From the IMG/VR virus record IMGVR_UViG_3300042549_001261, positions 1 to 41,006 of that record: a DNA stretch of 41,006 bases; one strand, given 5' to 3'. The position numbers and the translations under genes are program-made. This document shows positions 7,261 through 29,823 of this stretch, piece by piece. The stretch comes from a virus. The notes under the pieces were generated by a model. The model was not told the DNA's origin, searched no databases, and worked only from the letters and a program-made list of their open reading frames with translations. Position 1 is the first letter of the stretch; the number at the start of each line of letters is the position of its first letter.

Positions 7261-8082
7261 TTAAAAACCTATTGGTTCTAAAGCGTTTGCATATTTTTGA
7301 AGTATGAAGTCGCTAAAATAATCTTCAGGCTTAGGTGATTCTTTTTTAACAGTTGGTCGGACCTTGTGAAAATCTTCTATGCCAAGAGTAACGGAATCAT
7401 TGTAATGAAATACTTGTTCCATATTATCTATTTCAAGTTCACAGGGTTCTAATCCAAGGAAGTCAAAGATACTAGACATTTCTTTTACTGGGTTTGCAAC
7501 TAAGTCATCGTATGATACAAACTTAAACATTCCAGAATCTTCATTTTTCTTAGCGTTGGCTAAGCCAAGTATTGACCTAGGAATTAAATCGTGGCCATAC
7601 ATTAAGTATTCTGCCATCGCATCATTTTTACTTAAGTAATGTTTTGCATAGAAACCAGAAGATTCCAATTCTTTGTTTAAGTAAAAGTTTGGATTATTAG
7701 CAGACTTTGAAACAAAAGAAGCGAGAACTTCTAGTATTGGTCTATGACAAACAATAAATCTAGGGTGAGTAGAAATCTTTAAGGCTAGTTCAAAGTTGTC
7801 GGGAATGCTCCAGCCGAATTGTTTATCAAAAACAACATCTTCTTTTACTGTGCTGTAAAAATTTTGTGGCATTGTCCATAATGCTTGTTGATAAAAAGCA
7901 GTACGTAGTTGCCACTTTACAGACTCGGAGTTAATAAAGGACTGGTGCATATCATAAAGACCGCCAAGCAATCCTGAATGAGGCGACGCATAAATCTTTG
8001 GATGTTGATTTAGTAGAGTTGCCAACAATGTTGAACCGCTTCTTGGGAGTCCACAAAGAAAGTTTATATTTTTTATATTCAT
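7261..8082 (-). CDS. Sulfotransferase family protein
   Basis: A 273-residue enzyme with the PAPS 5'-phosphosulfate-binding loop at the N terminus: NFLCGLPRSGSTLLATLL. The second (3'-phosphate) element is seen in HPRFIVCHRPILEVLASFV, where the Arg and following Ser fit the family. KFVSYDDLVANP and FDFLGLEP are also typical of Sulfotransfer_1/3 proteins. It would transfer sulfate from PAPS to a hydroxyl or amine. The ATG overlaps the stop of the upstream paralogue gene (ATGA). It lies between two homologous unknown genes; together they form an AT-rich cassette, probably acquired, placed after the adhesin genes. Confidence 0.8.
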   Translation of the reverse strand: MNIKNINFLCGLPRSGSTLLATLLNQHPKIYASPHSGLLGGLYDMHQSFINSESVKWQLRTAFYQQALWTMPQNFYSTVKEDVVFDKQFGWSIPDNFELALKISTHPRFIVCHRPILEVLASFVSKSANNPNFYLNKELESSGFYAKHYLSKNDAMAEYLMYGHDLIPRSILGLANAKKNEDSGMFKFVSYDDLVANPVKEMSSIFDFLGLEPCELEIDNMEQVFHYNDSVTLGIEDFHKVRPTVKKESPKPEDYFSDFILQKYANALEPIGF

Positions 8083-13293: not shown

Positions 13294-13971
13294 TTATCTC
13301 CTTTTGGTCATAGCGTTGTAATAGTGTTCATCAAAAGAGAACCGCTTCATATGTGGAGCAGTTACGCTTGTGTCACACCAGAGTGGGACTCCTGCTTTCT
13401 CGCATAATGCGAAGAAGTAAATGTCCTCACCAATAAACTTTGTCCCTCTACCCATCTCCATAAAGAACTGGGCATCAGGTAATTCTTTTCTAATCCTGTC
13501 AACTACGCTTCGGTGCATCAAGACATATCCCATACCTGCTGCGCTGACCTGAATCAGTTTGTCTTTAGGAAGTGGGTGGACTCTTGTTAATCCAAAGCCA
13601 CCTTCATCTCCCTCTATAAAGTTAAAGATTGTAGGCATTGGAACCATCAGTGGTTCCTCTGGGTTGTCGGTAGTAAAGTAAACGCCAGTCATTATTGGGC
13701 GTTCATCTTTGTCCTTTTGATTCCAAAGTTTCAAGAATCCTTCTGGACTAATGACTACATCTGAATCAACCCATAGTAGCCAGTCTGCTTTGTTCTGGTC
13801 GTACCAATAGTTAATAACTTTCTCACGTTGACGGGCAATTTGATTACCCTGTGAGCGATAGGTAGATTCAAAGGTGAGTCCAGATTTAAGTATTACATCT
13901 GTAACTCCCTGCATAAACTTTCCATCTACCATACCGTTATCGCACCAAGCGATTGCTACTGTTTCTTGCAT
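13294..13971 (-). CDS. GT-A-fold glycosyltransferase-like protein
   Basis: A 225-residue protein from the ATG at 13971 (AGG 8 nt upstream; a GTG at 13980 is the alternative start). The metal/nucleotide-sugar-binding DxD is in WLLWVDSDVVISPEG, following QIARQREKVINYW. The second half has a GMGYVLMHRSVVDRI and GEDIYFFALCEKAGVPLWCD pattern like GT2 enzymes, where the ED pair provides the catalytic base. It lies inside the structural cluster, so it may glycosylate virion proteins or host surface glycans. Sugar and acceptor unknown. Confidence 0.75.
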   Translation of the reverse strand: MQETVAIAWCDNGMVDGKFMQGVTDVILKSGLTFESTYRSQGNQIARQREKVINYWYDQNKADWLLWVDSDVVISPEGFLKLWNQKDKDERPIMTGVYFTTDNPEEPLMVPMPTIFNFIEGDEGGFGLTRVHPLPKDKLIQVSAAGMGYVLMHRSVVDRIRKELPDAQFFMEMGRGTKFIGEDIYFFALCEKAGVPLWCDTSVTAPHMKRFSFDEHYYNAMTKRR

Positions 13972-13985
13972 TGTCCCCACCTTTG

Positions 13986-16517: not shown

Positions 16518-16997
16518 TTATTCTTGTGAGCGAAGCAAACTCAAAATCTCTTCTGCTGATTCAGCATTGTCGAGGCGTAGGTTTAAGTCTTCTGCTCGGT
16601 CAGGTGTGTATGCACCCTGTGTAACGACGTCCTGCTGACGTAATGCAGCGCGGTCCATCTCGTTTACTTTAGGGGCTTCCTCTGCTTTAGTTAATCCGAA
16701 CAAGTCTCCGTTTTCGTCGAGCCAGTTATTCACTGACTCTTCGTTAACATCATCTATGTCCTTGAGGATTAGACGTACAGCCTTAGGATTGACACCCTTC
16801 TTTTCTAGGACTTCCTTGACGGTTCTCTCACGTTGAACCTTGGATAATGAATCCAATTGGTCTGTGAGTTCCTTGATTCGTTTCTCATCATTACGCTTGG
16901 CTTTCCGCAACTTCTTTAAGAGGTCGCTTCCATCCATATTGCCAGTGACTTCTGTGTCCAAGTCATCGTCTTCTTCATCCCAGTAGTTGTTGCTCAT
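16518..16997 (-). CDS. Probable scaffolding protein
   Basis: A 159-residue acidic protein. The ATG at 16997 (RBS AAGGGTGGAAAG) is preferred to the in-frame TTG at 17033. The N terminus is very acidic (NNYWDEEDDDLDTEV), followed by a long charged coiled coil (LLKKLRKAKRNDEKRIKELTDQ) and a C-terminal helical tail (ESAEEILSLLRSQE). This charge pattern and its place directly before the capsid gene fit a scaffold. The 124-nt gap upstream (16998-17121) holds G/C-rich inverted pieces (AACGG...CCGTT) but no gene. Confidence 0.7.
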   Translation of the reverse strand: MSNNYWDEEDDDLDTEVTGNMDGSDLLKKLRKAKRNDEKRIKELTDQLDSLSKVQRERTVKEVLEKKGVNPKAVRLILKDIDDVNEESVNNWLDENGDLFGLTKAEEAPKVNEMDRAALRQQDVVTQGAYTPDRAEDLNLRLDNAESAEEILSLLRSQE

Positions 16998-17121
16998 AGC
17001 AACTTTCCACCCTTCTATTTGTAGTAGTCGCAAGCCTCAGGTTCCAGTCGGGGGAATGGTCTGGCTCTTGCTATCGGTCTAGTACGCTAAACGGGGCCGA
17101 TGGGTCCGTTCAGGATTCTAT

Positions 17122-18357
17122 TTAGAAGGAGCCTTGGCGTGACTTTCCTAGGCTGCCTTTAGTTGTTCCTGCTGAGCCTTGGAATCGTGCTTGCTCAATA
17201 GAGGTAAGTGATTCACGTGCACGCTTTGCTGAGGCTGTTCCCTTAAATACTTCCGCCTCTGCTTGAGCCTGACCGTAATCTGGTCCTTGTGAAATCTGTG
17301 AAAGAAATTCTGCACGAGGTGTAATTTCTGCAATAGTTGCATATCCCTTACGTGCTTCTTCCTGGGTTACTCCAAAGTCTGCAAGGTCTGCAGCAGTTGA
17401 TTGCGCTACCTTCATATTCTGGACAAGCCCTGCTCCACCAATTTCAGCCATTGTTATCTTGCGCTGAAGCGCTGGTAAACCATCCTTAGGGTTAAGGAAT
17501 GAGGCAACAATATCTGTCTGATTAAGCATTGGATAGTATTCCGCCAAGGCTTTCTTTGTATCTGGGTCAGCATTCTGGACACGTTTTACGGCAAGGCCAA
17601 CTCTGTCAGATACCTCTGTTGGAGATATATCATTAGAAATAAAACTGCTGAGTGTATCTCGTGAAGCAAGTCCTGCTACACCATATGAACGCATTGTTTC
17701 GGTGTACTGTCTTTCCAAAGCAAGGTATGCACCTGGGCTAAGTACTGACTTACCTGCTGCAGCACGTGCTTTATTTGCAGAGAATCTTTTTTGAAATGCA
17801 ACCGCTAGTGGGTCATTGCTATTAGGGTCTTGCATAATCAAATCAATTGTGTCTTCTGAGTAACCCTTGATTACAGCATTTGCTACTGCATCACCTAAGT
17901 CACCGATACCATATGAGGAAAGAAGTGCTTTAATTGCAGCAACTGAATCAACTTGGGTTGTTGTTAAACCACCAGTGTTGAGTGGGTTGGGTGGGTTACC
18001 TGCACCACCTGTGCCACCAGTTTTTGTACCAGTTGTACCAGTTGTACTAGCGCCAGTGACACCAGCAACGGCTCCTGCACCAAGGCCACCTAGTGGTCCT
18101 AATCTTAAATAGTCGCTTGCTGCCAGAGGTTCAGGAGCGGGTGCATTTGCTGGAGGATTGACACCTGCAACTACACCAGCACCTAGACCGCCAAGCGGTC
18201 CTAAGCCTAGATAATCATTTGCTGCACGACCTTGAGGAGCAGCAGTGCTTGCTGGGGCTGATTGACCAGTATATAGCAAGTAATCTTCGTATGAGGTTCT
18301 ATCCTCTCGTGGCAGTCTCTCTTGAGAACGTGCCCACTCTGCTTTTGTTAGTGCCAT
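17122..18357 (-). CDS. Internal virion protein candidate with duplicated Gly-rich block
   Basis: A 411-residue protein. The N-terminal 30 residues are basic and helical, then a block DYLGLGPLGGLGAGVVAGV occurs at about 49-67 and again as DYLRLGPLGGLGAGAVAGV at about 82-100. A Gly/Thr-rich linker (TGTTGTKTGGTGGAG) follows. The remaining 275 residues are helical with an Asp/Gln-rich surface and end in a Ser/Gly/Lys tail. Coupled by TAATG to the 405-residue gene. The hydrophobic Gly-rich pair could insert in membranes during ejection. Function inferred only from position. Confidence 0.55.
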   Translation of the reverse strand: MALTKAEWARSQERLPREDRTSYEDYLLYTGQSAPASTAAPQGRAANDYLGLGPLGGLGAGVVAGVNPPANAPAPEPLAASDYLRLGPLGGLGAGAVAGVTGASTTGTTGTKTGGTGGAGNPPNPLNTGGLTTTQVDSVAAIKALLSSYGIGDLGDAVANAVIKGYSEDTIDLIMQDPNSNDPLAVAFQKRFSANKARAAAGKSVLSPGAYLALERQYTETMRSYGVAGLASRDTLSSFISNDISPTEVSDRVGLAVKRVQNADPDTKKALAEYYPMLNQTDIVASFLNPKDGLPALQRKITMAEIGGAGLVQNMKVAQSTAADLADFGVTQEEARKGYATIAEITPRAEFLSQISQGPDYGQAQAEAEVFKGTASAKRARESLTSIEQARFQGSAGTTKGSLGKSRQGSF

Positions 18358-19574
18358 TATCCTGCCAAACCGAATGTCTGGGCTAACTTGCTGGCTACTC
18401 TAGCCATTGAGTCCTGAGCATTCTTAGTAAAGCGCCACTTCGGATTTTGGCGCAGGGATACTTCATAGTCATAAAGATTCATTAGACCCTTTGGGTCTTT
18501 TGCTATATCCTTGAGTTCTTTAATATCAATAGTGTCTGCATCCTCTTCAAGGATGTTTGCACGTGATTGAAGGTATGGGCTAAGTAATTGCTTTACTGTA
18601 TATCCAGCATCAATCTTGTCAGTAAGGGCTGGAAAGATAGTCTTTGCCTGTAGGTTAATTAAGTTCATATTAGCCTTGAGGCGGTCAGTGTTAGATGCTG
18701 ATTCCAATACCTGCTTATTAAGAGTTGCCTGAGAAATAGGGATGCCATTCTCAAAGTAAGCATTCTTAAGTGTTGTATAAGCAATACCAAACTGACCCTT
18801 GCCTAGGTTTACCTGGGCTACAGGGTCACCTGCATCTGCTGCTGCGATACGAACGTTGGCATATTGATTAACATACTTGTTGAGTAGGTCAATACGCTCC
18901 TGCTCAGTAACACCTTTAGTAGTTACATCCACGCCTTTAATGTTTCTTGCCTTGCTGATGCGTGATAATTCAAGAGCATTAAGTTCCTTGTAGTAGGCAT
19001 CTACAGCACTTTTAGGTGCTGGCTCGCCTAGCATAGTTCTGAATGTGTCCTGCATCTCAGCCGCAGCCGATGGTCTTGCTGTCATAGAACCGCTAGTGCG
19101 TCCTGCCGTTCCAGCGGCTCCTGTATCAACATCTACTTTAATAGCCTGACTAACTGCTCCATCAAGATTAAGTGTGGTTTTAGCAACCTGTTGGTAGGTA
19201 AGGGCGTTAGCAACTAAGCCGATAATTCTATCTGATGTTCCAAGTGTTCCGTTTACTGGCCCATCATAAAGCCCAGCAGCAGAATACTTTTGCTTAAGGC
19301 TTTTAATTTTGGCTGCGCCAAGACCATTAAGATAAATACCTAACTCTGTTAAGTTATCTGCGTATGTAATCGCACCCTTATCATCATAGATTGCATAACC
19401 AGAGATTGCTTCAAGTCCAGGGTCGCCACCTGGAGTATCAGGATTTTCAATCGCAGTTGCTGCAGTGCTTCCAACCTTAGGGTCGTTATCGTCTGCATCA
19501 AGAACAATACTAGGAATTACTTCCCCTGCTTTGGTAGGTACCTTAAAGCCGTCGTTGTCTTTGTCCTCTGCCAT
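18357..19574 (-). CDS. Internal virion protein candidate with peptidoglycan-binding-like segment
   Basis: A 405-residue protein from the ATG at 19574 (GGAGAA upstream). After an acidic, disordered N terminus (to residue ~55) comes KSLKQKYSAAGLYDGPVNG, a pattern resembling PG_binding_1 repeats (xLxxxGYYxGxVNG). The remainder is alpha-helical (MQDTFRTMLGEPAPKSAVDAY, QARILEE-type helices). It lies between the giant 1776-residue gene and the Gly-rich 411-residue protein, suggesting all three are packaged and ejected together. The peptidoglycan-binding suggestion is tentative. Confidence 0.55.
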   Translation of the reverse strand: MAEDKDNDGFKVPTKAGEVIPSIVLDADDNDPKVGSTAATAIENPDTPGGDPGLEAISGYAIYDDKGAITYADNLTELGIYLNGLGAAKIKSLKQKYSAAGLYDGPVNGTLGTSDRIIGLVANALTYQQVAKTTLNLDGAVSQAIKVDVDTGAAGTAGRTSGSMTARPSAAAEMQDTFRTMLGEPAPKSAVDAYYKELNALELSRISKARNIKGVDVTTKGVTEQERIDLLNKYVNQYANVRIAAADAGDPVAQVNLGKGQFGIAYTTLKNAYFENGIPISQATLNKQVLESASNTDRLKANMNLINLQAKTIFPALTDKIDAGYTVKQLLSPYLQSRANILEEDADTIDIKELKDIAKDPKGLMNLYDYEVSLRQNPKWRFTKNAQDSMARVASKLAQTFGLAG

Positions 19575-19575
19575 T

Positions 19576-22500
19576 TTATTCTCCAATCAAACCATCAAAT
19601 AGGCTCCAGTAAAGGGATACAGCGTTAGGGTTTTCCCCTGCTGTAACTTTTAGGAACTCGCGTATATCGTCCTTCATCATTCTCTTGCGGTCCGCATCAG
19701 ACTGAGAAGTACCCTGGATTGCGTCAATGCCAGCCTGGTATTCGTCGTACTTATAAATCATTGTTGCAAAGGTCTCACCTAGAGCCTTGTCTGGTGACCT
19801 ACCATCGTAAACAACGTTACGCAAGTCATTAAGTGCTTCTTCTTTCAAAGCCTTGTAAGCCTTGACGTTGCCAAGTTCTGCAGCCAGTAATGGGTACTGC
19901 TTCATAAAAGCATTCTTTTCAATATCCCACTGATTACGCAAGTCTTTTCTACCTTGAACGCTGTCAGAATTACTGATTGCGTCATCATAGAACTCTTTGC
20001 GAATTGTGTACTTCTGTCTTCCAGATGCTACAGAAGCCTGGCGTAGGAAGTCTTCTAAGTCCTTATTCTTAATAAAGCCCTCAGACTTAAGATAGGAGTA
20101 GGCAGCCAGGTCATTTGTACCATTAACAGGAACAAAGAATGCTGCTGCTTGCTTGTTGTTAAGTACCAATTCTTTGTTATTGCGAACAAAGTCTGCTGCT
20201 TCTAAGGTCTTCTGAAAAGATGCTTCCGTACCAGTGTCTGTCTTGGATACAGCGTATACAGCCTTGTCTGGATAGAACTGCACGAAGCGCATATAAGCCT
20301 TGCTGTATGCCTCTGGGTCACCAGCAAAAGTCTCAAGTAGTTTGATGAACTCTGAGTCCCAACTAAAGGCTCCAGCGTTAATCATTTCCTTAGGAACATC
20401 TTTGTTGGCGAACACTTGCACAGAGGCAGGTGCCATAAGGCCAAGACCAAAACGAAGAACCATAATGTTCATCGCTTGCTTCATTGCAAAATCCAAGAAT
20501 GGGTTTATATCTGCACCCTCTTTAGGACCTTTACCTAGTGAAATACCTAGACGCATAGCCTGAACTGCAGCAGATGCTTTTTGTTCTGTAAGAAGTTCGT
20601 TGCTACCAACAATATCAATCATACGCTGTACGTTAATTGGTGCAACCTTGCGCCAGAATGCTTGGTCTTTTCTACCGCCAGTAAGAATAGGTTCTACATC
20701 TTTAATCCAATCTCCAATAATAGGGAGATTTTGTAACATAATTAAAGGAACGCTAACCAGTGGTCCACCAATACGTGGTGCTGCAGATTCTGGGTCAAGA
20801 GATGGTGTAAGCATCTTTACATATCCACCGAAGTTGACTGGCAACGGGTTATATGTTGGGAATCCAAGTCGCTCAAATAATGAATTGTTCATAATCGTGT
20901 TAAGAACATCATCACCTGGGTAGGTAAAGTAGAGTTGTCCTCGTGAATCCTTGTGAACAAATCCAGAATGCTGGAAAGTTTGGTTCAAGATAGCAAGGCG
21001 CTGGATGGCCATAGGCTCGTACTTTGCAATACGACTAGCACGACGCCAGAAGTCTTCTGTAGCGCGATAGTAGCGACCAAAGTTGCGTACATTAAACGCA
21101 AGGTTTGTGCGAACATCTGAGTTATCTACAAAAGATAGTGTACGCATACGGGCTAGAGTAAGAGCCTCTTCGTGTACCTGGTTCTTTACAAGAAGTTCTG
21201 CTGCCTCACGGCTTATGCCATCACCAGTAAATGATTCGATAAGATTTTGTTGACGCTTGAGCAACTGCTCACGATACATTACATAGTTTCCGTAAAGAAT
21301 AGGCTCACGGTCTAGTAGTGCAATCTGGCGACCAATCCAAGCATAACCATTTTTCATTACTCGGTCAATAAACTGTGGTTCCTCACCTGCTTGGTAAGGA
21401 ATAAGTTCACGACCAAGAATCATTTTTGGCTTATCGAAGCCTTCTTCGTATTTAGCCAACTGGGAAAAGTCAAAACTGGAGATACCTCCACTGACTTTAA
21501 TCTCTTCAATCAATTTAGTATTTAAGCGACCAGAGTAATCACGCAGAGCATTAGTTGAATCCACATAAATACGCTTGGCAAATCCATCGGCACCTAGTGC
21601 ATTGTATAAAGCAAATCGTTTAGCAAGTTTATTTCCCTTGCCTTCGATAAACTTTACCAAAGTTTCAATAACATCTTCCTCTTTGCGAGCGATGTTTGTA
21701 AATACAATTTGACCAAAGATGTTCTTTTTGCCAATAGTATTCTGTAGGTCAAGATACCAGTTAAGAAGATACTCTGGACGGTCATAACGAATCTGTGAAA
21801 ACACAGATTGTAGTTTTTGGTCTTTGAGCATTTCAACAATTTGTGGGTTCTCTGTTAGAGATGGTCCATACTGGCGTAGACTGCTGGCTGTTTGCTCGGC
21901 GACATCTAACTTAAACTCAGCACGTGTGGCTGCGCCGTTGATTTCGTCAGTAACAACTTGTCCATTGTTACGAACAAAGTCCTCTGCGTATTCAGCAATA
22001 CGTGCACCTTTGGCTGTACGTAGAAATTCTGGCTTAAATCTGTCGTTAAGGACAGCCCTGCCTACAGCAATAGCCATTGCCTCAGGGTCATCTGCGAACT
22101 TAATAAGTTCTTCACGTGTATACATAGTCTTCATAACTTTGTATACTTGACGTGAGATAAGTCCGAGTGGGCTAAACTCTACTTCTCTTTGACCTATGAT
22201 GGTTTTCTTTCCACCAGGAAGAGTCGCCTTGCGAATCTGTTGAGAAATCAAGCGACCAGAAATGTATTCTGAAACTCCATTAAGTCCATTTATAAGTCCA
22301 TATGTACCGACCTCTTCAATAGAGGTACGAAGTCCTAGACGTGGGTAAAGGTTAAGGAATGACCAAACATCCACAGTCTTTTGCGAAATAACTGACTCAC
22401 CGACTCTTCCAGTAATAGAAGAAAAAATGTTTCCTTTAAGTTCAAAACGGCGAAGGTCAACAAGGTTTGGCATATATCGCTTGTTTGACAACTGGTAGGC

Positions 22501-24906
22501 ACGCACAGCGTACTGTGCTCCATCAAGTTCTGCTGCGTTAAAAACTTCTAGTTCTACTGGGCGCACATCTTCAAGGACGGCTTTAATTTCTTTCTTAGCC
22601 ATCTTAGTCTTATATAGCATACCACCCATAATTGCAAGTGACTTGTCAAGTTCTTTAACAACAGAATCAATTGTTGCTGCTTCTTCAGGAGTGACCCCTG
22701 CTTTTTTGCGACCAAGAAGACCCTTCTTGACATCTTTAATTTCTTTGATGTCTGCAATCATCTCGCGCATTTCTGCACCAGTAGAGGCTGCAAGACGTGA
22801 TGCGATTCCTTCAGCACCTGCTGTTTCTGTAACCTGGTCTACAATCTTACGAATACCTTCAGGTGCTGCGATGTCACCTGCTGTAGTAGTACGCAAGATA
22901 CGAGTAAACTCGTCAAGGTTAAGCGCTGACTGATTGACTGAGTAAAGTTCCTTGCTCATTACATCAATGTTATCTAGGAACTTACGACCATTTTCGGTAA
23001 GGTCAAAGCCCATACCAACGCCCATAGTCTTGAGTAAGCCCTTATACATAAGAAGGCGTTCGCCCTCTGTAGCACCAATCCAAGCAATGCGGAATACCGA
23101 AGCGTTGTGCTTGTCAATTACTGTACGAGCGAGACGATAAACCTGGTCGGCGCTTGAGGCATCATCAAGAGAAATCATTCTGTCAAGTTTTGGAGAGATA
23201 GAAAGTTGGCGAGATATAGCCCTATCCAGGATTGCATCTACACTTCTGTCTTTAGCAACAAAACCTTTGAACTTTTCTGATATACCAGCGCGACCTGCAA
23301 GGACACGAGTATCTTCTATAAAGCCAAGTTTTTCTGCCCAAACATTTGGACCTTCTTCAATGACTCTTGCAATGTCTGCAATAGTTTCTGGCAGTTCTCC
23401 AACGCGGTAGCGTTCAATTCCGATACCCTTACCAACTGCATCCTTTGTCCAATCTTTAATTGAACGAGACACAGAATAACGTGGGATTAAAGGTGTGCGA
23501 CGGATGCCAGCATTGCCGCGCATCATATCGTTAACAATGTCACCGCTTACAAAGAACTTAAGTGCAGTATCTGCATCCTTGATATTCGGTGCCATATAGA
23601 GTGCAACATCTGTACTAATTTCAGGAAATCTTTCAGTGATTCGAGTAAGGACATCTGCCTTTTGTGCGATTGTGCCAGACTGATACTTCTGAAATAGGTT
23701 ACCAAGGTTGTCCCAATACTTGCGAACATTGCGATTCTTCCAAGCCTTTTCAAGGTTGCGTGGGTCTTCGCCCATTTTGATGAGGCCAAAGCGTGCTGCG
23801 TCTGTAGAACGCTTTACTTTGCCACCAACAATAACTGGGTCAAAAACAAATGTGACTGTAGCGTCAACTGTTCCAGAGATTGCACTAAAGAATCCCTGCG
23901 CGACTCCATCGCCAGCAATTGCTTTTTCTGCATCAAATGGAAACATACCAAAAAGCATACGTGTTAAGTCACGTCCTGGAGAGATTTTTGCATTAGAGTA
24001 CTGCGTAACAATCTTTCCGAGTTCCTCGGCTAGTTGCTTGTCTTCTGGTTTTCCAGATGAGTAGCGATTAACAATATCTAATTTTTTTGGGTCAGCAAGG
24101 ATTTCTTCCCAGTAGTCGAAGAAGTTGCCCTTCTTAGCAAGAATTTTACCAAGGAATGCCATTTCTGGGGTAGTTGACTTATCAACTTTTTCCACTTCAA
24201 ATCTATCGAATACATTTTCTTGGTCAGCAGCCTGTTCCCAATATTTCTTCCAGGTTTTAGAGTTGTCTGTTGGAAGAGCATCTCTGCCACCAGGAAGAAG
24301 TTCTTTGAAACCTTCGTAAATAAATTTACCGTATGTTCCATAAGTTCCTTCGCCTTCAATTTCAGCGAGTTTTTGTGCAGTATATGGCTGCTTAATTGTT
24401 TTAATCTGTGGACGCAATGCTGTTTCTAAGGCGCTACCGACTGCGGTAGTTATACCGCTTTTCTGTGCGCCAGCATAGGTTCCCTTAATTGCGCCAATGA
24501 TAGGAGATACACCACTAAGAGAAGAACCTACATCGCCTAGAGAAACTTTTTTATCTCGTCCAGTTTCCATACCGATGATTTGTTTTCCAAAATCAATTAC
24601 GGTAGATGTAGAATACCAAAGGGAAGACTTTGCCCCACCAATAAAGTTCTTGAAAAAACCCTTATCTTCTTCTTGATACTTAGGGTCAAAGACATAATTC
24701 AAGGCATCACGATACTCTGTTGGAAGAGCATTAAAAGAACGATAAGCCTCATTCTGTGGCAAGGTTGTTAAGTATTCGTGGGTCTTTCTTAATTCAGTAA
24801 AAGCAGCCATATTTGCTTTTTCCTGTGGTGATAGGTTTGCTTGCGCCGCCGCAGTTGCTAAACCAGGAGATACCTCTGCGATTTTATTTAATGGTTTTTT
24901 AATCAT
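19576..24906 (-). CDS. Giant putative internal/ejected virion protein
   Basis: A 1776-residue protein, the largest in the window (5.3 kb). It is mostly predicted helical, without Cys pairs or an obvious signal peptide. The first 250 residues are polar helices with a possible amphipathic membrane segment (SSLWYSTSTVIDFGKQIIG). There is a long basic centre, and a C-terminal region contains LMAPASVQVFANKDVPKEMI. It lies between the HslV-like peptidase and the scaffold. In podoviruses proteins of this size are ejected with the DNA (T7 gp16-like) or are virion RNA polymerases (N4). I see no polymerase motif I can name. The overlap with its neighbours is 1-3 nt. Confidence 0.6.
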   Translation of the reverse strand: MIKKPLNKIAEVSPGLATAAAQANLSPQEKANMAAFTELRKTHEYLTTLPQNEAYRSFNALPTEYRDALNYVFDPKYQEEDKGFFKNFIGGAKSSLWYSTSTVIDFGKQIIGMETGRDKKVSLGDVGSSLSGVSPIIGAIKGTYAGAQKSGITTAVGSALETALRPQIKTIKQPYTAQKLAEIEGEGTYGTYGKFIYEGFKELLPGGRDALPTDNSKTWKKYWEQAADQENVFDRFEVEKVDKSTTPEMAFLGKILAKKGNFFDYWEEILADPKKLDIVNRYSSGKPEDKQLAEELGKIVTQYSNAKISPGRDLTRMLFGMFPFDAEKAIAGDGVAQGFFSAISGTVDATVTFVFDPVIVGGKVKRSTDAARFGLIKMGEDPRNLEKAWKNRNVRKYWDNLGNLFQKYQSGTIAQKADVLTRITERFPEISTDVALYMAPNIKDADTALKFFVSGDIVNDMMRGNAGIRRTPLIPRYSVSRSIKDWTKDAVGKGIGIERYRVGELPETIADIARVIEEGPNVWAEKLGFIEDTRVLAGRAGISEKFKGFVAKDRSVDAILDRAISRQLSISPKLDRMISLDDASSADQVYRLARTVIDKHNASVFRIAWIGATEGERLLMYKGLLKTMGVGMGFDLTENGRKFLDNIDVMSKELYSVNQSALNLDEFTRILRTTTAGDIAAPEGIRKIVDQVTETAGAEGIASRLAASTGAEMREMIADIKEIKDVKKGLLGRKKAGVTPEEAATIDSVVKELDKSLAIMGGMLYKTKMAKKEIKAVLEDVRPVELEVFNAAELDGAQYAVRAYQLSNKRYMPNLVDLRRFELKGNIFSSITGRVGESVISQKTVDVWSFLNLYPRLGLRTSIEEVGTYGLINGLNGVSEYISGRLISQQIRKATLPGGKKTIIGQREVEFSPLGLISRQVYKVMKTMYTREELIKFADDPEAMAIAVGRAVLNDRFKPEFLRTAKGARIAEYAEDFVRNNGQVVTDEINGAATRAEFKLDVAEQTASSLRQYGPSLTENPQIVEMLKDQKLQSVFSQIRYDRPEYLLNWYLDLQNTIGKKNIFGQIVFTNIARKEEDVIETLVKFIEGKGNKLAKRFALYNALGADGFAKRIYVDSTNALRDYSGRLNTKLIEEIKVSGGISSFDFSQLAKYEEGFDKPKMILGRELIPYQAGEEPQFIDRVMKNGYAWIGRQIALLDREPILYGNYVMYREQLLKRQQNLIESFTGDGISREAAELLVKNQVHEEALTLARMRTLSFVDNSDVRTNLAFNVRNFGRYYRATEDFWRRASRIAKYEPMAIQRLAILNQTFQHSGFVHKDSRGQLYFTYPGDDVLNTIMNNSLFERLGFPTYNPLPVNFGGYVKMLTPSLDPESAAPRIGGPLVSVPLIMLQNLPIIGDWIKDVEPILTGGRKDQAFWRKVAPINVQRMIDIVGSNELLTEQKASAAVQAMRLGISLGKGPKEGADINPFLDFAMKQAMNIMVLRFGLGLMAPASVQVFANKDVPKEMINAGAFSWDSEFIKLLETFAGDPEAYSKAYMRFVQFYPDKAVYAVSKTDTGTEASFQKTLEAADFVRNNKELVLNNKQAAAFFVPVNGTNDLAAYSYLKSEGFIKNKDLEDFLRQASVASGRQKYTIRKEFYDDAISNSDSVQGRKDLRNQWDIEKNAFMKQYPLLAAELGNVKAYKALKEEALNDLRNVVYDGRSPDKALGETFATMIYKYDEYQAGIDAIQGTSQSDADRKRMMKDDIREFLKVTAGENPNAVSLYWSLFDGLIGE

Positions 24907-25340
24907 TAAAGACCTCGTGATGCAACAAAGTTGTATAGTTCCTGAACTTCTCCAGTTGGGTCCATATCAATCATTGATGCAAGAATCTCTGAAAGAGAAC
25001 GCTCACGAGGTAGGTTAAGGGCCTCAGAACCAGCACCAGGGCCGAAGTCAACGCCACTTGTGATTGGTTCATCTGGGCGCTCCGTAGGGGCTGTGAGAGG
25101 TGTAATTGCTGGCATACCAGGAATGTCCATAGGCATTTCTTTGGCTGCCCCACGACGTGGTGTACCTGCCATAGGTGCACTCTGCTGTTGCTGCATTGTT
25201 TCCTGTCCTTGGCCATAAGCCATTCCAGGGATATAGCGAGCAGCCTGAGTACCAGCCTGACCATCGCCACCAGTTGCTGAAACGTTGGCAGGGTTATTCT
25301 GCGGTGCTGTTGGACGCATTCCGCCTCTATTTTCTGCCAT
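24906..25340 (-). CDS. Disordered Pro/Gln/Gly-rich protein
   Basis: A 144-residue protein with a low-complexity N terminus (APQNNPANVSATGGDGQAG), Met/Pro-rich middle (AKEMPMDIPGMPAITP) and a short C-terminal helix LSEILASMIDMDPTGEVQELY. The disordered body plus one structured helix is what one expects of an assembly adaptor or cargo-linker. It follows the peptidase gene and precedes the giant internal protein. It might be a peptidase substrate or scaffold partner; that is speculation. Confidence 0.5.
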   Translation of the reverse strand: MAENRGGMRPTAPQNNPANVSATGGDGQAGTQAARYIPGMAYGQGQETMQQQQSAPMAGTPRRGAAKEMPMDIPGMPAITPLTAPTERPDEPITSGVDFGPGAGSEALNLPRERSLSEILASMIDMDPTGEVQELYNFVASRGL

Positions 25341-25350
25341 TTATTTCTCC

Positions 25351-25893
25351 CTACTTAGTGTGCTTAAATTGTATTTTTGATTGATACGGTGGGGCGGTAA
25401 AGGCTGAAACCTTTGCTGCTATCTCCATTGCTTCGTAAGCATCTGCACCAGCGTGTAGTGCTCCTATTGCATATGCTGCACCAGAACCTGTTGCGTAAAC
25501 TCCATCAGCGTTTCGACTGACCGATAGGTCATCATCAATGTCAAAGATTTCTCCACACACTGCAATCAGAAACTGAAAGCGTTGCTCTGTCTTAGGTTCA
25601 TCAAAGTTAAAACCATTTGATGATAGACACTTACGTAGTGAAGGCATTACCTTGGCAATCATAAAGTGATAAAGGTCTTGCTTATCTTGCTTGGTAGGAA
25701 CTGGAGGTTCCCATATATGTTGTGCTACATCGCAAGGTAAAACCTCGCCTGAGCCAGCAATTAAAAATTGCCCTCGTTCTGAAATCTTCTTGACATCTGG
25801 ATGAGTAAAAATCTTTCCACTGTCATCTGTAGTTTGGCTATCTGCAACCAGAACACAATCTTTTTCGTACTGTAGTCCTATAATTGTTGTCAT
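25351..25893 (-). CDS. HslV/proteasome-beta-like Ntn-hydrolase (candidate prohead protease)
   Basis: A 180-residue protein, the usual length of HslV. Its start, M-TTIIGLQYEKDCVLVADSQTT, matches the HslV/proteasome N terminus: Thr1 as nucleophile after Met removal, Asp17 in ADSQTT. The Lys33-equivalent follows in HPDVKKI, then FLIAGSGE (the AGFAGG-type strand) and DGVYATGSGAAYAIGAL (GSG loop of Ser129). The end AYEAMEIAAKVSAFTAPPYQ mirrors the HslV helix. Family assignment is strong. It lies between portal and capsid genes, where most phages carry a serine-type prohead protease, and I see no other protease. No HslU or Mpa-like ATPase is encoded, so it probably acts inside the prohead or on host proteins. 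Confidence 0.82.
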   Translation of the reverse strand: MTTIIGLQYEKDCVLVADSQTTDDSGKIFTHPDVKKISERGQFLIAGSGEVLPCDVAQHIWEPPVPTKQDKQDLYHFMIAKVMPSLRKCLSSNGFNFDEPKTEQRFQFLIAVCGEIFDIDDDLSVSRNADGVYATGSGAAYAIGALHAGADAYEAMEIAAKVSAFTAPPYQSKIQFKHTK

Positions 25894-25908: not shown

Positions 25909-27687
25909 CTACCCTCTTGTTACTGCTCTTGCGTTTGCAGCACCTGATGCTGAAAGGCTTGAGAGGATTGTTTGAATATCTGGTGCTGCCTGTGGTGCTT
26001 CTATTGGTGCCCCACCTTGTTCGGTAGGAGCGCCTCCTGCTGGAACGCCTTCGGGAGCAGGGGACGGTTGCTCAACCATTTGTGGTGCCCCAGCAGGAGG
26101 AACTTGTTGCTGCGGAGCGAATGTGGCTTCAATGGCATCTTCTAATGCGACACCTTTTTGACGAGCCTTGATAACCGCAGCAATTTTACGGACCACCTCT
26201 GAAGCATCTTGTCCCTGAGTTGCCATTTGTGGAATAGCCTGTGAGAAGGCTGTAAGTGAACCAAGAAGCGAAGAACGCATCTGTTCAATTTCAATCTTTT
26301 CTAGTTCTTGTGTGACGTTAACTGTGAATGGTAGTTCACGCATAGCCATATCCTTGGAGATAAGACCGCCACCTAAAGCCTGTAGCATAAAGATAAGACC
26401 CTGTGCAGGGTTAAGACCAGCGAGCATTCCATAACGAACATCTGCTGAGTAATCGTTCTTGATGTCTCTGCCTGGTCGGTATGTAATTTCGTAAGGTGAA
26501 CCAGAGTCAACACCACGAATGGTCTTTTCTTCTGGATAGATTACTTCATCTACCTCAAAGCAGAGGCTAATAACATCGCGTAGGGCTGCAGCAAAGATTG
26601 CTTGAGCAGACTTAACTTGGGTATCGAATGCACCCATAAGTGCCTGTACGCCTTGTCCCGTGACGATAGAGGCATCAATGTTTCCAGTACGCGATTCTGG
26701 ATAGCGTGTACCGACACGCAATTCTTGATTGAGTATTTCTTGCTCAGTGAATGCTCCTGCTGGAATGTTAAGTTCCACGCGGCGTACACCTGCTGGGTTT
26801 GCTGTACGGATAACAGCGTCTCCACCAAGTTGTAGTTCCTGAACATCGTTAGGAAGTACGATTGGAGACTGAACAGATTTCTCTGCTGCTTCCATAGCAA
26901 GAAGTGCAAAGCGGTTACGTAGTAACTGGATGCCAAGGACGTCATCAAATTGTCCACGAAGTTCACCGTCAATAGATGGCTTACGTGCGACAACAATCAT
27001 CATCTTACCAAGTGGGTTGTTAGCCTTAGAAAGAACTAAGTTGCCCTTTGATGGGATGAAGATGATTGACTGGTCTTTGTCGTAATAGCGAATCATTTCA
27101 ACCTGAGCATTGAGGTCCTGCTCGTAGCCGTAGCCACCAAGAAGTTCTCTTTCGAACTCAGGGAATTGTGAAACAAGTTCGCCAAGTGTCATTACATATC
27201 GCTTAGCAAATGCAACGCAACGTCCATAGCGGTCAAACTCTGGGTAAGCCCCAATCGGATTTTCTATGCGGATACGTGGCATCTTTGATTCTTCGTCTAA
27301 TTCAATGATGAATGGGACGAAACCGTAGGTGAGGTACCAGTCAGCGCCTGAGTACATTTGTACTGCTAGGTCTGAGTGATTGAAGTAGTTAGAGGCAATA
27401 CGAGTACGCTTGTCTGCGAACTGACGTGCCTTATCTGATACCTGGTTTGCAGCAGAACAATTGACTGCTGGTAGTGGTGCCATAACCTCAGAGAGGTCAC
27501 GTGCCACAATGTCAATAAAGTTTGCTACTACGTTTGCATCTACGCCGTCGGGGAAGAAGTCAGGGTAGACTTCAGAAATCTTTCCTTTACGGACAGCAAG
27601 CACGTCAAGGTTGCGAGCATCGCGCTCATTGTTGCGGTAGCGCATAGACAGGACTCGCGCTGCAACCTGTTCCATTGATAGTGCCAT
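25909..27687 (-). CDS. Portal protein
   Basis: A 592-residue protein directly downstream of the terminase. The N terminus has a helical RVLSMRYRNNERDARNLDVL, followed by the portal pattern ADWYLTYGFVPFIIELDEESKM and IENPIGAYPEFDRYGRCVAFAKR. FDDVLGIQLLRNRFALLAMEAAEKSVQSP gives the long wing/stem helices (here quoted in parts), and a Pro/Ala/Gln-rich disordered tail closes it. It forms the dodecameric ring for DNA entry. Assigned by position, size and strand-helix pattern. Confidence 0.85.
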   Translation of the reverse strand: MALSMEQVAARVLSMRYRNNERDARNLDVLAVRKGKISEVYPDFFPDGVDANVVANFIDIVARDLSEVMAPLPAVNCSAANQVSDKARQFADKRTRIASNYFNHSDLAVQMYSGADWYLTYGFVPFIIELDEESKMPRIRIENPIGAYPEFDRYGRCVAFAKRYVMTLGELVSQFPEFERELLGGYGYEQDLNAQVEMIRYYDKDQSIIFIPSKGNLVLSKANNPLGKMMIVVARKPSIDGELRGQFDDVLGIQLLRNRFALLAMEAAEKSVQSPIVLPNDVQELQLGGDAVIRTANPAGVRRVELNIPAGAFTEQEILNQELRVGTRYPESRTGNIDASIVTGQGVQALMGAFDTQVKSAQAIFAAALRDVISLCFEVDEVIYPEEKTIRGVDSGSPYEITYRPGRDIKNDYSADVRYGMLAGLNPAQGLIFMLQALGGGLISKDMAMRELPFTVNVTQELEKIEIEQMRSSLLGSLTAFSQAIPQMATQGQDASEVVRKIAAVIKARQKGVALEDAIEATFAPQQQVPPAGAPQMVEQPSPAPEGVPAGGAPTEQGGAPIEAPQAAPDIQTILSSLSASGAANARAVTRG

Positions 27688-27954: not shown

Positions 27955-29823
27955 CTAACCGTATTGGTCTGCCCATTGTGAGGCAAACGCTTCATCTAAA
28001 TTCAGTGAGCCACGACCAGCCATCTGCGCTCGTGTAGCCCATCGGTTTGTTTGGTACTGACCGACTCTAGTGCTTTGTTGCATCAACTCTCTGACGCGGA
28101 TTACCGCAAACCATAGAGCCATCACAGTATCTGTGGGGTTTCGTGTTTCTGGTTTCCAGGTAATCAACTGCTGTACCAAGGTCTTCAAGCCTTCAGAGCC
28201 TTCGTTGCTTGGTAGTTCAATCAAGTTGTTATCCTGGAAGCGTCCATCTCTGGTGTTACCAAATAGGCTTGCCATAGATGCCACACCAAAAGATGTGTCC
28301 CACTTGTTCTTACCAGTAAAGTGTGAGTTTAACTGGCAGCCATACTGGGCTAGAAAGTTTCTTAAGTTCTCATCCAGGGCGTAAGCCTTCTGGTGGGCGT
28401 TGATTTCGATACGCAGTTCTTGAGGACGGTACTTATCCACCCATTCTTCAATTAAATCTTGAATCTTCTGGGGTGTAGGTTCTGTCATATTGACTGCATC
28501 TAAAACATAAATTTTGCCATCGGTTCGGTTGTATGTAATAACTACCGCGCCTGTAGCACCTGCCATAGCAGGGTCAAGTCCGATTACCGTATACGTAGAG
28601 TCAGTGTGCTTAGGGTGTCCAGGAACCCCTGCCTTGAGTGGCCCACGCTTTCGCATTCCATTGACACTTCCTGCGACGCAGGTTGGTGAGAAGATGGAAT
28701 CTTCTTGGACGTCCTCTTGCTGGTAGACCATAGCCCAAACTGACGGTGCGACCTCAGAGCGTCTCGTAAAGAGAGAAGGTCCGTCCCACTTGGGAAAAAG
28801 TCCATTTTCATCCGCCCCATCAATTTCGTTTTCTTGCATATTAGACTTAGGCCAAAGTGTTTTCCAGTTCTCAGGCTTTTCGTCAAACTCTAGTACTGCT
28901 GGTTGTGAGAAGTAAGTGAAGGGGGATTTGCCGCCCGACCACTGCCCTGGGTCACGAATCATCTTGTAGAGGTCTACGGCAGAGATTCGGGTACCTACGA
29001 TAACCAACTTGCCGTGACGACCCAGACGGGTGATAACTTCCTTCTGAATCCACTCAAGTTGCTTTTCCCACTCGTGAGCGTTGGAACCCATCACAACGTC
29101 ATCAAGGATAATCAGGTCGGCACGAGCACCGTAAATCTGGGAACCAAATCCTAGGGCTTGGACCGTTGGGTCCTTTTCGCCTGAGTCTCTACCAGTACCT
29201 AGGTAAATCATATCGGCAGACCATTGGGTTGCATCTGCCTTGTAGCCACCGTTAGGGCCAAAGGCCACCTGTAACTTTGTGTAGGCTGGGTGTGAGAGTC
29301 TAGTCTTGATGGCTCCCAGAAACTTACGAGCCATACCCTGAGTCTTAGAGACGATGATGACTCTAGCATTCGGGTTGGTAACAATCTTGTGGACGACATA
29401 GTTGGTCGTGATGACCGTAGACTTGGCGTGCTCAGGAGGTACGTTAATCAGGATACGATTAAGGGCGCCAGGCTCGTAGGTCATAGACGGGTGCATCCAT
29501 CTTGGCTCGCGGCCTTCGATAATGTCATACCAGTCAAGGTGATGGTCAAAGAGGGGTGAGTCTAGGAACTGCTCACAGAAGTCGGGGAAGGCAATTTCCT
29601 TAATGTCCTTAAGGTCTGCCTTAACCCCTTTGCCCACAAGTCGGGCTTTCTCGGAGCGTTCCTTGAACTCAGGTGATTGCATCACCCATTGTCTAAAAGT
29701 TGTGTCATTACGGTTGACGGTAGCCATAGCACCAGTGATGGTGTTTCCCTGCTCCAGTTGGAGGAGTACCCGTTCCTGGGCTTCTATCTTGGAGAGGTCT
29801 TGCTTACCTGCTTTGCGTCCCAT
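27955..29823 (-). CDS. terL: Large terminase subunit with N-terminal HTH-like domain
   Basis: A 622-residue packaging motor. Residues 1-65 resemble the helix-turn-helix of small terminases (NTITGAMATVNRNDTTFRQWVM). The ATPase domain follows: Walker A NVPPEHAKST (about 128-136), Walker B ADLIILDDVVMG (235-246) and motif III-like KLVIVGTRIS. The RNase-H-like nuclease domain begins with TVIGLDPAMAGATGAV (Asp417) and has EINAHQKAY later. It starts at ATG 29823. No separate small terminase gene is visible; the N-terminal HTH may replace it. First gene of the late operon, downstream of the control region. Confidence 0.92.
   Translation of the reverse strand: MGRKAGKQDLSKIEAQERVLLQLEQGNTITGAMATVNRNDTTFRQWVMQSPEFKERSEKARLVGKGVKADLKDIKEIAFPDFCEQFLDSPLFDHHLDWYDIIEGREPRWMHPSMTYEPGALNRILINVPPEHAKSTVITTNYVVHKIVTNPNARVIIVSKTQGMARKFLGAIKTRLSHPAYTKLQVAFGPNGGYKADATQWSADMIYLGTGRDSGEKDPTVQALGFGSQIYGARADLIILDDVVMGSNAHEWEKQLEWIQKEVITRLGRHGKLVIVGTRISAVDLYKMIRDPGQWSGGKSPFTYFSQPAVLEFDEKPENWKTLWPKSNMQENEIDGADENGLFPKWDGPSLFTRRSEVAPSVWAMVYQQEDVQEDSIFSPTCVAGSVNGMRKRGPLKAGVPGHPKHTDSTYTVIGLDPAMAGATGAVVITYNRTDGKIYVLDAVNMTEPTPQKIQDLIEEWVDKYRPQELRIEINAHQKAYALDENLRNFLAQYGCQLNSHFTGKNKWDTSFGVASMASLFGNTRDGRFQDNNLIELPSNEGSEGLKTLVQQLITWKPETRNPTDTVMALWFAVIRVRELMQQSTRVGQYQTNRWATRAQMAGRGSLNLDEAFASQWADQYG

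Follow-up and report, generated by a model that had tools for sequence, protein, structure and literature searches.

A proteasome-like peptidase gene behind the portal gene of freshwater phages is missing from many relatives that share their head genes

We examined IMGVR_UViG_3300042549_001261, a single virus record of 41,006 bases that was taken whole (here referred to as the window), and identified directly behind its portal gene a gene encoding a proteasome/HslV-like Ntn (Thr) peptidase. In our reasonably confident reading, the encoded protein is a group I proteasome-like peptidase that serves the phage as an accessory enzyme. It would act on proteins in the infected cell and would be either self-sufficient or assisted by a host unfoldase. 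The computed basis of this reading is the fold, the invariant catalytic set, purifying selection, the position of the gene, its absence from relatives and the operon in which a sister clade encodes its homologue. The original prediction had suggested that the peptidase might be recruited for capsid maturation; that it is required for this process is not supported.

Gene and genomic context

The HslV-like gene lies on the minus strand, where the gene order is TerL (the terminase large subunit), a 76-aa ORF, portal, the HslV-like gene, the genes for 144-, 1776-, 409-, 411- and 171-aa proteins and the major capsid protein (MCP) gene (Table 1). It starts 15 nt past the portal stop codon and ends 10 nt ahead of the next ATG and, with such short gaps on both sides, it is therefore part of the same co-directional gene block. 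The earlier description of the gene as lying between portal and capsid genes holds, though loosely: the portal gene adjoins it, and the MCP gene is found ~9 kb downstream, past the gene for the 1776-aa protein.

Elsewhere, the window encodes a sulfotransferase (7261-8082), a glycosyltransferase-like protein (13294-13980) and a methyltransferase (1056-1631), the first two of which sit inside its tail/structural region.

Table 1. Positions of the peptidase gene, its active-site codons and the head genes in the window
Feature	Position	Strand	Remarks
Terminase large subunit (TerL)	27955..29823	-	phrog_38, E 2.3e-67
Portal protein, directly upstream of the peptidase gene and co-directional	25909..27687	-	phrog_104, E 4.7e-27; Pfam SPP1_portal
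Proteasome/HslV-like Ntn (Thr) peptidase gene	25351..25893	-	180 aa, from the ATG at 25893 to the stop codon at 25351; without propeptide
Thr2 codon (catalytic Thr1), exposure predicted once Met1 is removed	25888..25890	-	invariant, 167/167
Asp18 codon (Asp17 equivalent)	25840..25842	-	invariant, 167/167
Lys36 codon (Lys33 equivalent)	25786..25788	-	invariant, 167/167; the neighbouring Lys35 varies among homologues
G136-S137-G138 loop codons	25480..25488	-	the two Gly are kept in 166/167 (one gap), and 164 have Ser or Thr between them
144-aa protein (phrog_8200), directly downstream of the peptidase gene	24906..25340	-	kept in relatives with and without the HslV-like gene
Highly variable protein of 1776 aa, likely an internal or ejection protein	19576..24906	-	no family; synteny with giant gene 9 of Streptomyces phage Immanuel3
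Probable scaffold, phrog_7813	16518..17033	-	syntenic gene in phage Dennebes annotated as scaffolding protein
Major capsid protein (MCP), 317 aa	15526..16479	-	phrog_1357, E 3.7e-79; without large N-terminal prodomain in alignment

Fold, active site and selection

The protein matched phrog_1040 ('peptidase HslV family') over residues 1-172 with an E value of 1.4e-28. Its score with the Pfam Proteasome model was 17.7 bits, which is below the gathering cut-off of 22.4, while two of its relatives scored above this cut-off. When a profile built from 45 relatives was searched against the PDB, the bacterial proteasome homologue BPH came first (E 5.6e-8), followed by HslV. The AlphaFold2 model of the 180-aa protein (pLDDT 91.5, pTM 0.88) showed the alpha-beta-beta-alpha fold of proteasome-like Ntn hydrolases, with two helices (residues 51-60 and 74-92), both after the sheet. 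Foldseek comparison of this model again placed BPH first among PDB structures (TM up to 0.76), ahead of HslV and 20S beta subunits, each with a probability of 1.00; it also returned viral proteins, the best of which is annotated as an HslV peptidase subunit from an uncultured phage. The identification as an HslV/proteasome-type Ntn peptidase of nearly HslV length, which had been made from the sequence alone, was borne out by these searches.

The predicted motifs were all present, with M1-T2, D18, K36 and G136-S137-G138 following one another in the proteasome order. T2, D18 and K36, which correspond to Thr1, Asp17 and Lys33, were kept together in all 167 homologues compared, at identities down to ~23%, and no close relative had lost any of them. 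Candidates for the oxyanion glycine (Gly47) are G49 (164/167) and G47 (132/167). The dN/dS of the gene was 0.03-0.12, indicating strong purifying selection. Since the fold, the invariant catalytic residues and the purifying selection support it well, the HslV-like protein is very probably an active enzyme.

As had been anticipated, no HslU/ClpX-type ATPase partner was detected with Pfam or PHROGs among the window proteins scanned (some small ORFs lay outside this set). Equally, none of the scanned proteins matched a conventional prohead protease with either collection, in agreement with the original prediction.

Position behind the portal gene

A search of related phages for the same gene in the same position gave the expected picture. 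Among the 162 relatives drawn by homology, the HslV-like gene was directly behind the portal gene in 161, and the homologue of the 144-aa protein came next after it in 159. The sole locus of this portal lineage with no portal gene upstream of the HslV-like gene (L162, 1-1063) has a lysin-like ORF there instead.

Across the relatives carrying the gene, the portal protein was mostly 79-88% identical and the HslV-like protein was down to ~40% identical, and the latter value can be reached where the portal is ~88% identical. Between the window and its closest relatives, the synonymous divergence of the HslV-like gene was about double that of the portal gene (e.g. 0.52 vs 0.24), which suggests exchange of the gene among phages. 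The same slot was also found to hold a second, more distant lineage (L196, L218, L230, L237 and L241), which in the tree grouped with the homologue from phage DSL-LC01, apart from the main lineage (95/85 support, with long branches). With two HslV-like lineages in one slot, the slot has therefore probably received at least two HslV versions, either by separate gain or by swapping in place.

The genes for the 1776-, 409- and 411-aa proteins (the last two at 17122-19586) are extremely variable where portal and capsid are nearly the same, pointing to module exchange of probable ejection proteins. Co-evolution of the HslV-like gene with the 1776-aa gene was considered and rejected, as HslV-like proteins were found to be 97% identical where similarity of the 1776-aa protein was undetectable.

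Relatives lacking the gene

Two phages of the same clade without the HslV-like gene (L224 and L242) were first revealed by the portal scan. In both, the slot is occupied by a conserved small ORF of 83-86 aa with no family match (L224, 7760-8020; L242, 7080-7331). Scans with this slot ORF identified 106 same-clade loci, with a portal mostly 72-82% identical to that of the window, in which the small ORF is behind the portal gene and no HslV-like gene is present there; another 54 of the 160 loci obtained had no detectable portal match, and some of these may be other phages or truncated contigs. In 16 contigs of 30-41 kb lacking the gene at the portal, a profile search found no homologue anywhere. 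The same profile is able to detect HslV homologues, having recovered them from 4 of the 18 records to which it was applied before. This evidence for absence is strong, although not absolute because IMG/VR contigs may be incomplete.

Three genomes without the HslV-like gene were read through, and clear homologues of the scaffold-like protein and the MCP were found, the MCP being up to 89% identical (in one case) with the same N-terminus as in the window. On alignment, the MCP N-termini were the same in phages with and without the gene and the scaffold-like protein was much the same, and neither protein had an extra N-terminal prodomain in the phages with the gene. From TerL to MCP, one contig lacking the gene (G036) contained only homologues of the window head genes and the small slot ORF. 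A substitute protease in these relatives was also looked for and none was recognised, with no Pfam match for any of the six proteins scanned, which were the slot ORF, extra head-region ORFs and two variable ones.

The MCP itself occurs in two forms among the relatives, one of ~317 aa, as in the window, and one of ~400 aa with an extra domain of ~80 aa near residue 255 (L082, 17567-18757; L520, 13774-14976). This insert is independent of the presence or absence of the HslV-like gene.

The gene was also searched for in Streptomyces phages of the Beephvirinae (Immanuel3, FlowerPower, WRightOn and Dennebes), which share the gene order of the window, with ~45% identity in TerL, ~43% in portal and 52-56% in MCP, and have phrog_8200, 6654, 8424 and 7813 in common with it in the head module. 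No HslV-like gene was found anywhere in these four whole genomes. A Beephvirinae gene annotated as 'peptidase' was rejected as a counterpart, as it encodes an NlpC/P60 protein, which belongs to a cell-wall enzyme family. Cultured Beephvirinae have ~20 tRNA genes, located between their ejection block and scaffold, whereas the window has none. The window phage comes from fresh water and is distantly related to the Beephvirinae; this kinship to Streptomyces phages suggests an actinobacterial host.

Homologues in other operons

In a sister freshwater clade (portal ~49% identical), no HslV-like gene was present at the portal. Four longer records of this clade carry an HslV homologue elsewhere, in the replication operon, upstream of genes for a RecB-like nuclease and a DnaB helicase, both named from motif reading and from similarity to genes of the window and to reference genes. 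Among 80 additional loci of the sister type, the nuclease gene is within 1.5 kb after the HslV homologue in 78, with a portal gene nearby in none of the 80. In other phages, the homologue is beside thymidylate synthase (ThyX), near NrdAB/DHFR/ThyA or near PhoH, and in some it is inside runs of small genes. The HslV-like gene is thus movable between operons.

Proposed role and alternatives

For an accessory peptidase acting in the infected cell, the following course is proposed. Host methionine aminopeptidase would remove Met1 and expose Thr2 as the nucleophile, and the subunits may then assemble into a ring or double ring, by analogy with HslV and BPH. With no ATPase of the phage to feed it, the peptidase would cut proteins of the host or the phage, either unfolded or specific ones, in the cytoplasm of the infected cell, alone or with a host unfoldase. 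The original prediction had also offered degradation of scaffold and host proteins without an ATPase partner, of which the part on host proteins may hold. Two points weigh against the accessory reading: the phages lacking the gene could carry an unrecognised substitute, and, in the clade of the window, the very tight portal link and the sharing of one slot by two lineages could point to a role that is late or tied to the virion.

Such a role would be that of a peptidase that is packaged into the virion or acts late: it would be produced together with the portal and ejection proteins, would travel in the head or be injected, and would target host proteins either on entry or in the late phase of infection. 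We regard this as unlikely: the gene does lie between the portal gene and the probable ejection-protein block, and two HslV lineages do share the slot, but the sister clade encodes the homologue with replication genes, the HslV type varies independently of the 1776-aa gene and no packaging signal is known. It is also quite doubtful that the portal-linked lineage has gained a late, particle-associated role, unlike its relatives in the replication operon, whether by being packaged and ejected with the internal proteins or by speeding scaffold removal. Should this be the case, it would be, to our knowledge, the first example of an enzyme from the proteasome family that works inside a virion or together with one.

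A specific protein-modifying enzyme, which by limited proteolysis or connectase-like transpeptidation would act on one host factor, for instance in takeover or counter-defence, is a rather improbable alternative. Proteasome-like proteins can act as ligases, as described for connectase (PMC8665760), and the patchy presence of the gene and the distant versions in one slot resemble host-interaction genes. On the other hand, dN/dS is low and gives no residue-level hint of an arms race, and the model, which has no extra helices before residue 51, does not show a helical insertion of the connectase type between strands 3 and 4.

The capsid-maturation role was proposed on the assumption that a maturation protease is normally encoded by phages, which fails as a general rule for tailed phages because T7- and P22-type podophages are not known to have one. 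A prohead protease would be expected to be retained wherever the homologous head genes are, and to be accompanied by a head protein whose cleavable prodomain is gained and lost together with the protease. Neither pattern was seen: the gene is missing from the 106 loci, the 16 long contigs and the Beephvirinae, and no such prodomain was found in the MCP or the scaffold-like protein. This loss in relatives, together with the mobility of the gene, is unlike the behaviour expected of a gene needed to mature heads. That the gene encodes a prohead or scaffold protease of proteasome-family origin is very unlikely, for while it has a near-fixed place in one block with the portal, scaffold and capsid genes and no classical prohead protease was seen among the scanned window proteins, it is lacking in many relatives that have these head genes, the capsid protein is unchanged where it is absent, its sister-clade homologue has relocated to a replication operon, and it diverges far more than the portal.

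The freshwater clades form a natural comparison, as the same head genes occur with and without the gene and the homologues occupy two different operons, which argues against capsid maturation. Using such pairs of related phages, the role of a proteasome-like peptidase in a phage becomes testable.

Comparison with known systems

The prohead proteases of tailed phages (S78/U9/U35 types) resemble the peptidase described here in that its gene adjoins the portal gene, but they have an unrelated fold, and relatives that share the head genes of the window can do without the HslV-like gene. HslV (ClpQ) is similar in fold, catalytic residues and length. However, the window protein scored only 18.3 bits with TIGR03692 (cut-off 157.75) and 18.0 bits with NF003964 (cut-off 137), and no HslU gene was seen among the scanned window proteins. 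The cut-offs for 20S proteasome beta subunits were missed as well (TIGR03690, 12.6 bits vs 191.9; TIGR03634, 23.2 bits vs 224).

Phage-borne proteasome homologues were described by Fuchs, Alva and Lupas in 2021 (PMC8665760). Their group I of proteasome-like homologues includes BPH, AAH, CPH and PPH, of which PPH, AAH and CPH were reported in phages; PPH is ~140 residues long without helix H2, and AAH is present in many phages too (PMC8665760). The window protein, with 180 residues and both helices, differs from PPH, and its membership in HslV, 20S beta and PPH was rejected on the curated score cut-offs, length and helices. BPH is its best PDB match by both profile and fold, and both proteins are without a propeptide. 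Judged by these BPH matches in the PDB, the window protein appears to be near the group I family (HslV/BPH-like). Two scans of GTDB genomes for bacterial relatives gave pattern matches and no confirmed relative.

The phage proteins of PHROG 1040, such as those of Actinomycetia phage DSL-LC01, Psychrobacter phage D'Alembert and Pantoea phage AAS21, have the N-terminal Thr, Asp, Lys and G-x-G loop in common with the window protein, and many predicted viral structures share its fold. The annotated members inspected are 23-32% identical to it and their genes are located away from the portal gene, some of them near nucleotide-metabolism genes. Genomic context gave Fuchs et al. no functional hint for the new proteasome-like homologues (PMC8665760), and our literature search found no phage HslV with a tested function beyond that study. 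Phage proteasome homologues were thus already known from PHROGs, predicted-structure libraries and the same study (PMC8665760), and the peptidases reported here form an abundant lineage from fresh water within a phage protein family that had already been described, and do not constitute a new kind of system. What they add is genomic context, namely that the gene is tightly linked to portal in one clade, where it is also freely lost, and lies in a replication operon in the sister clade.
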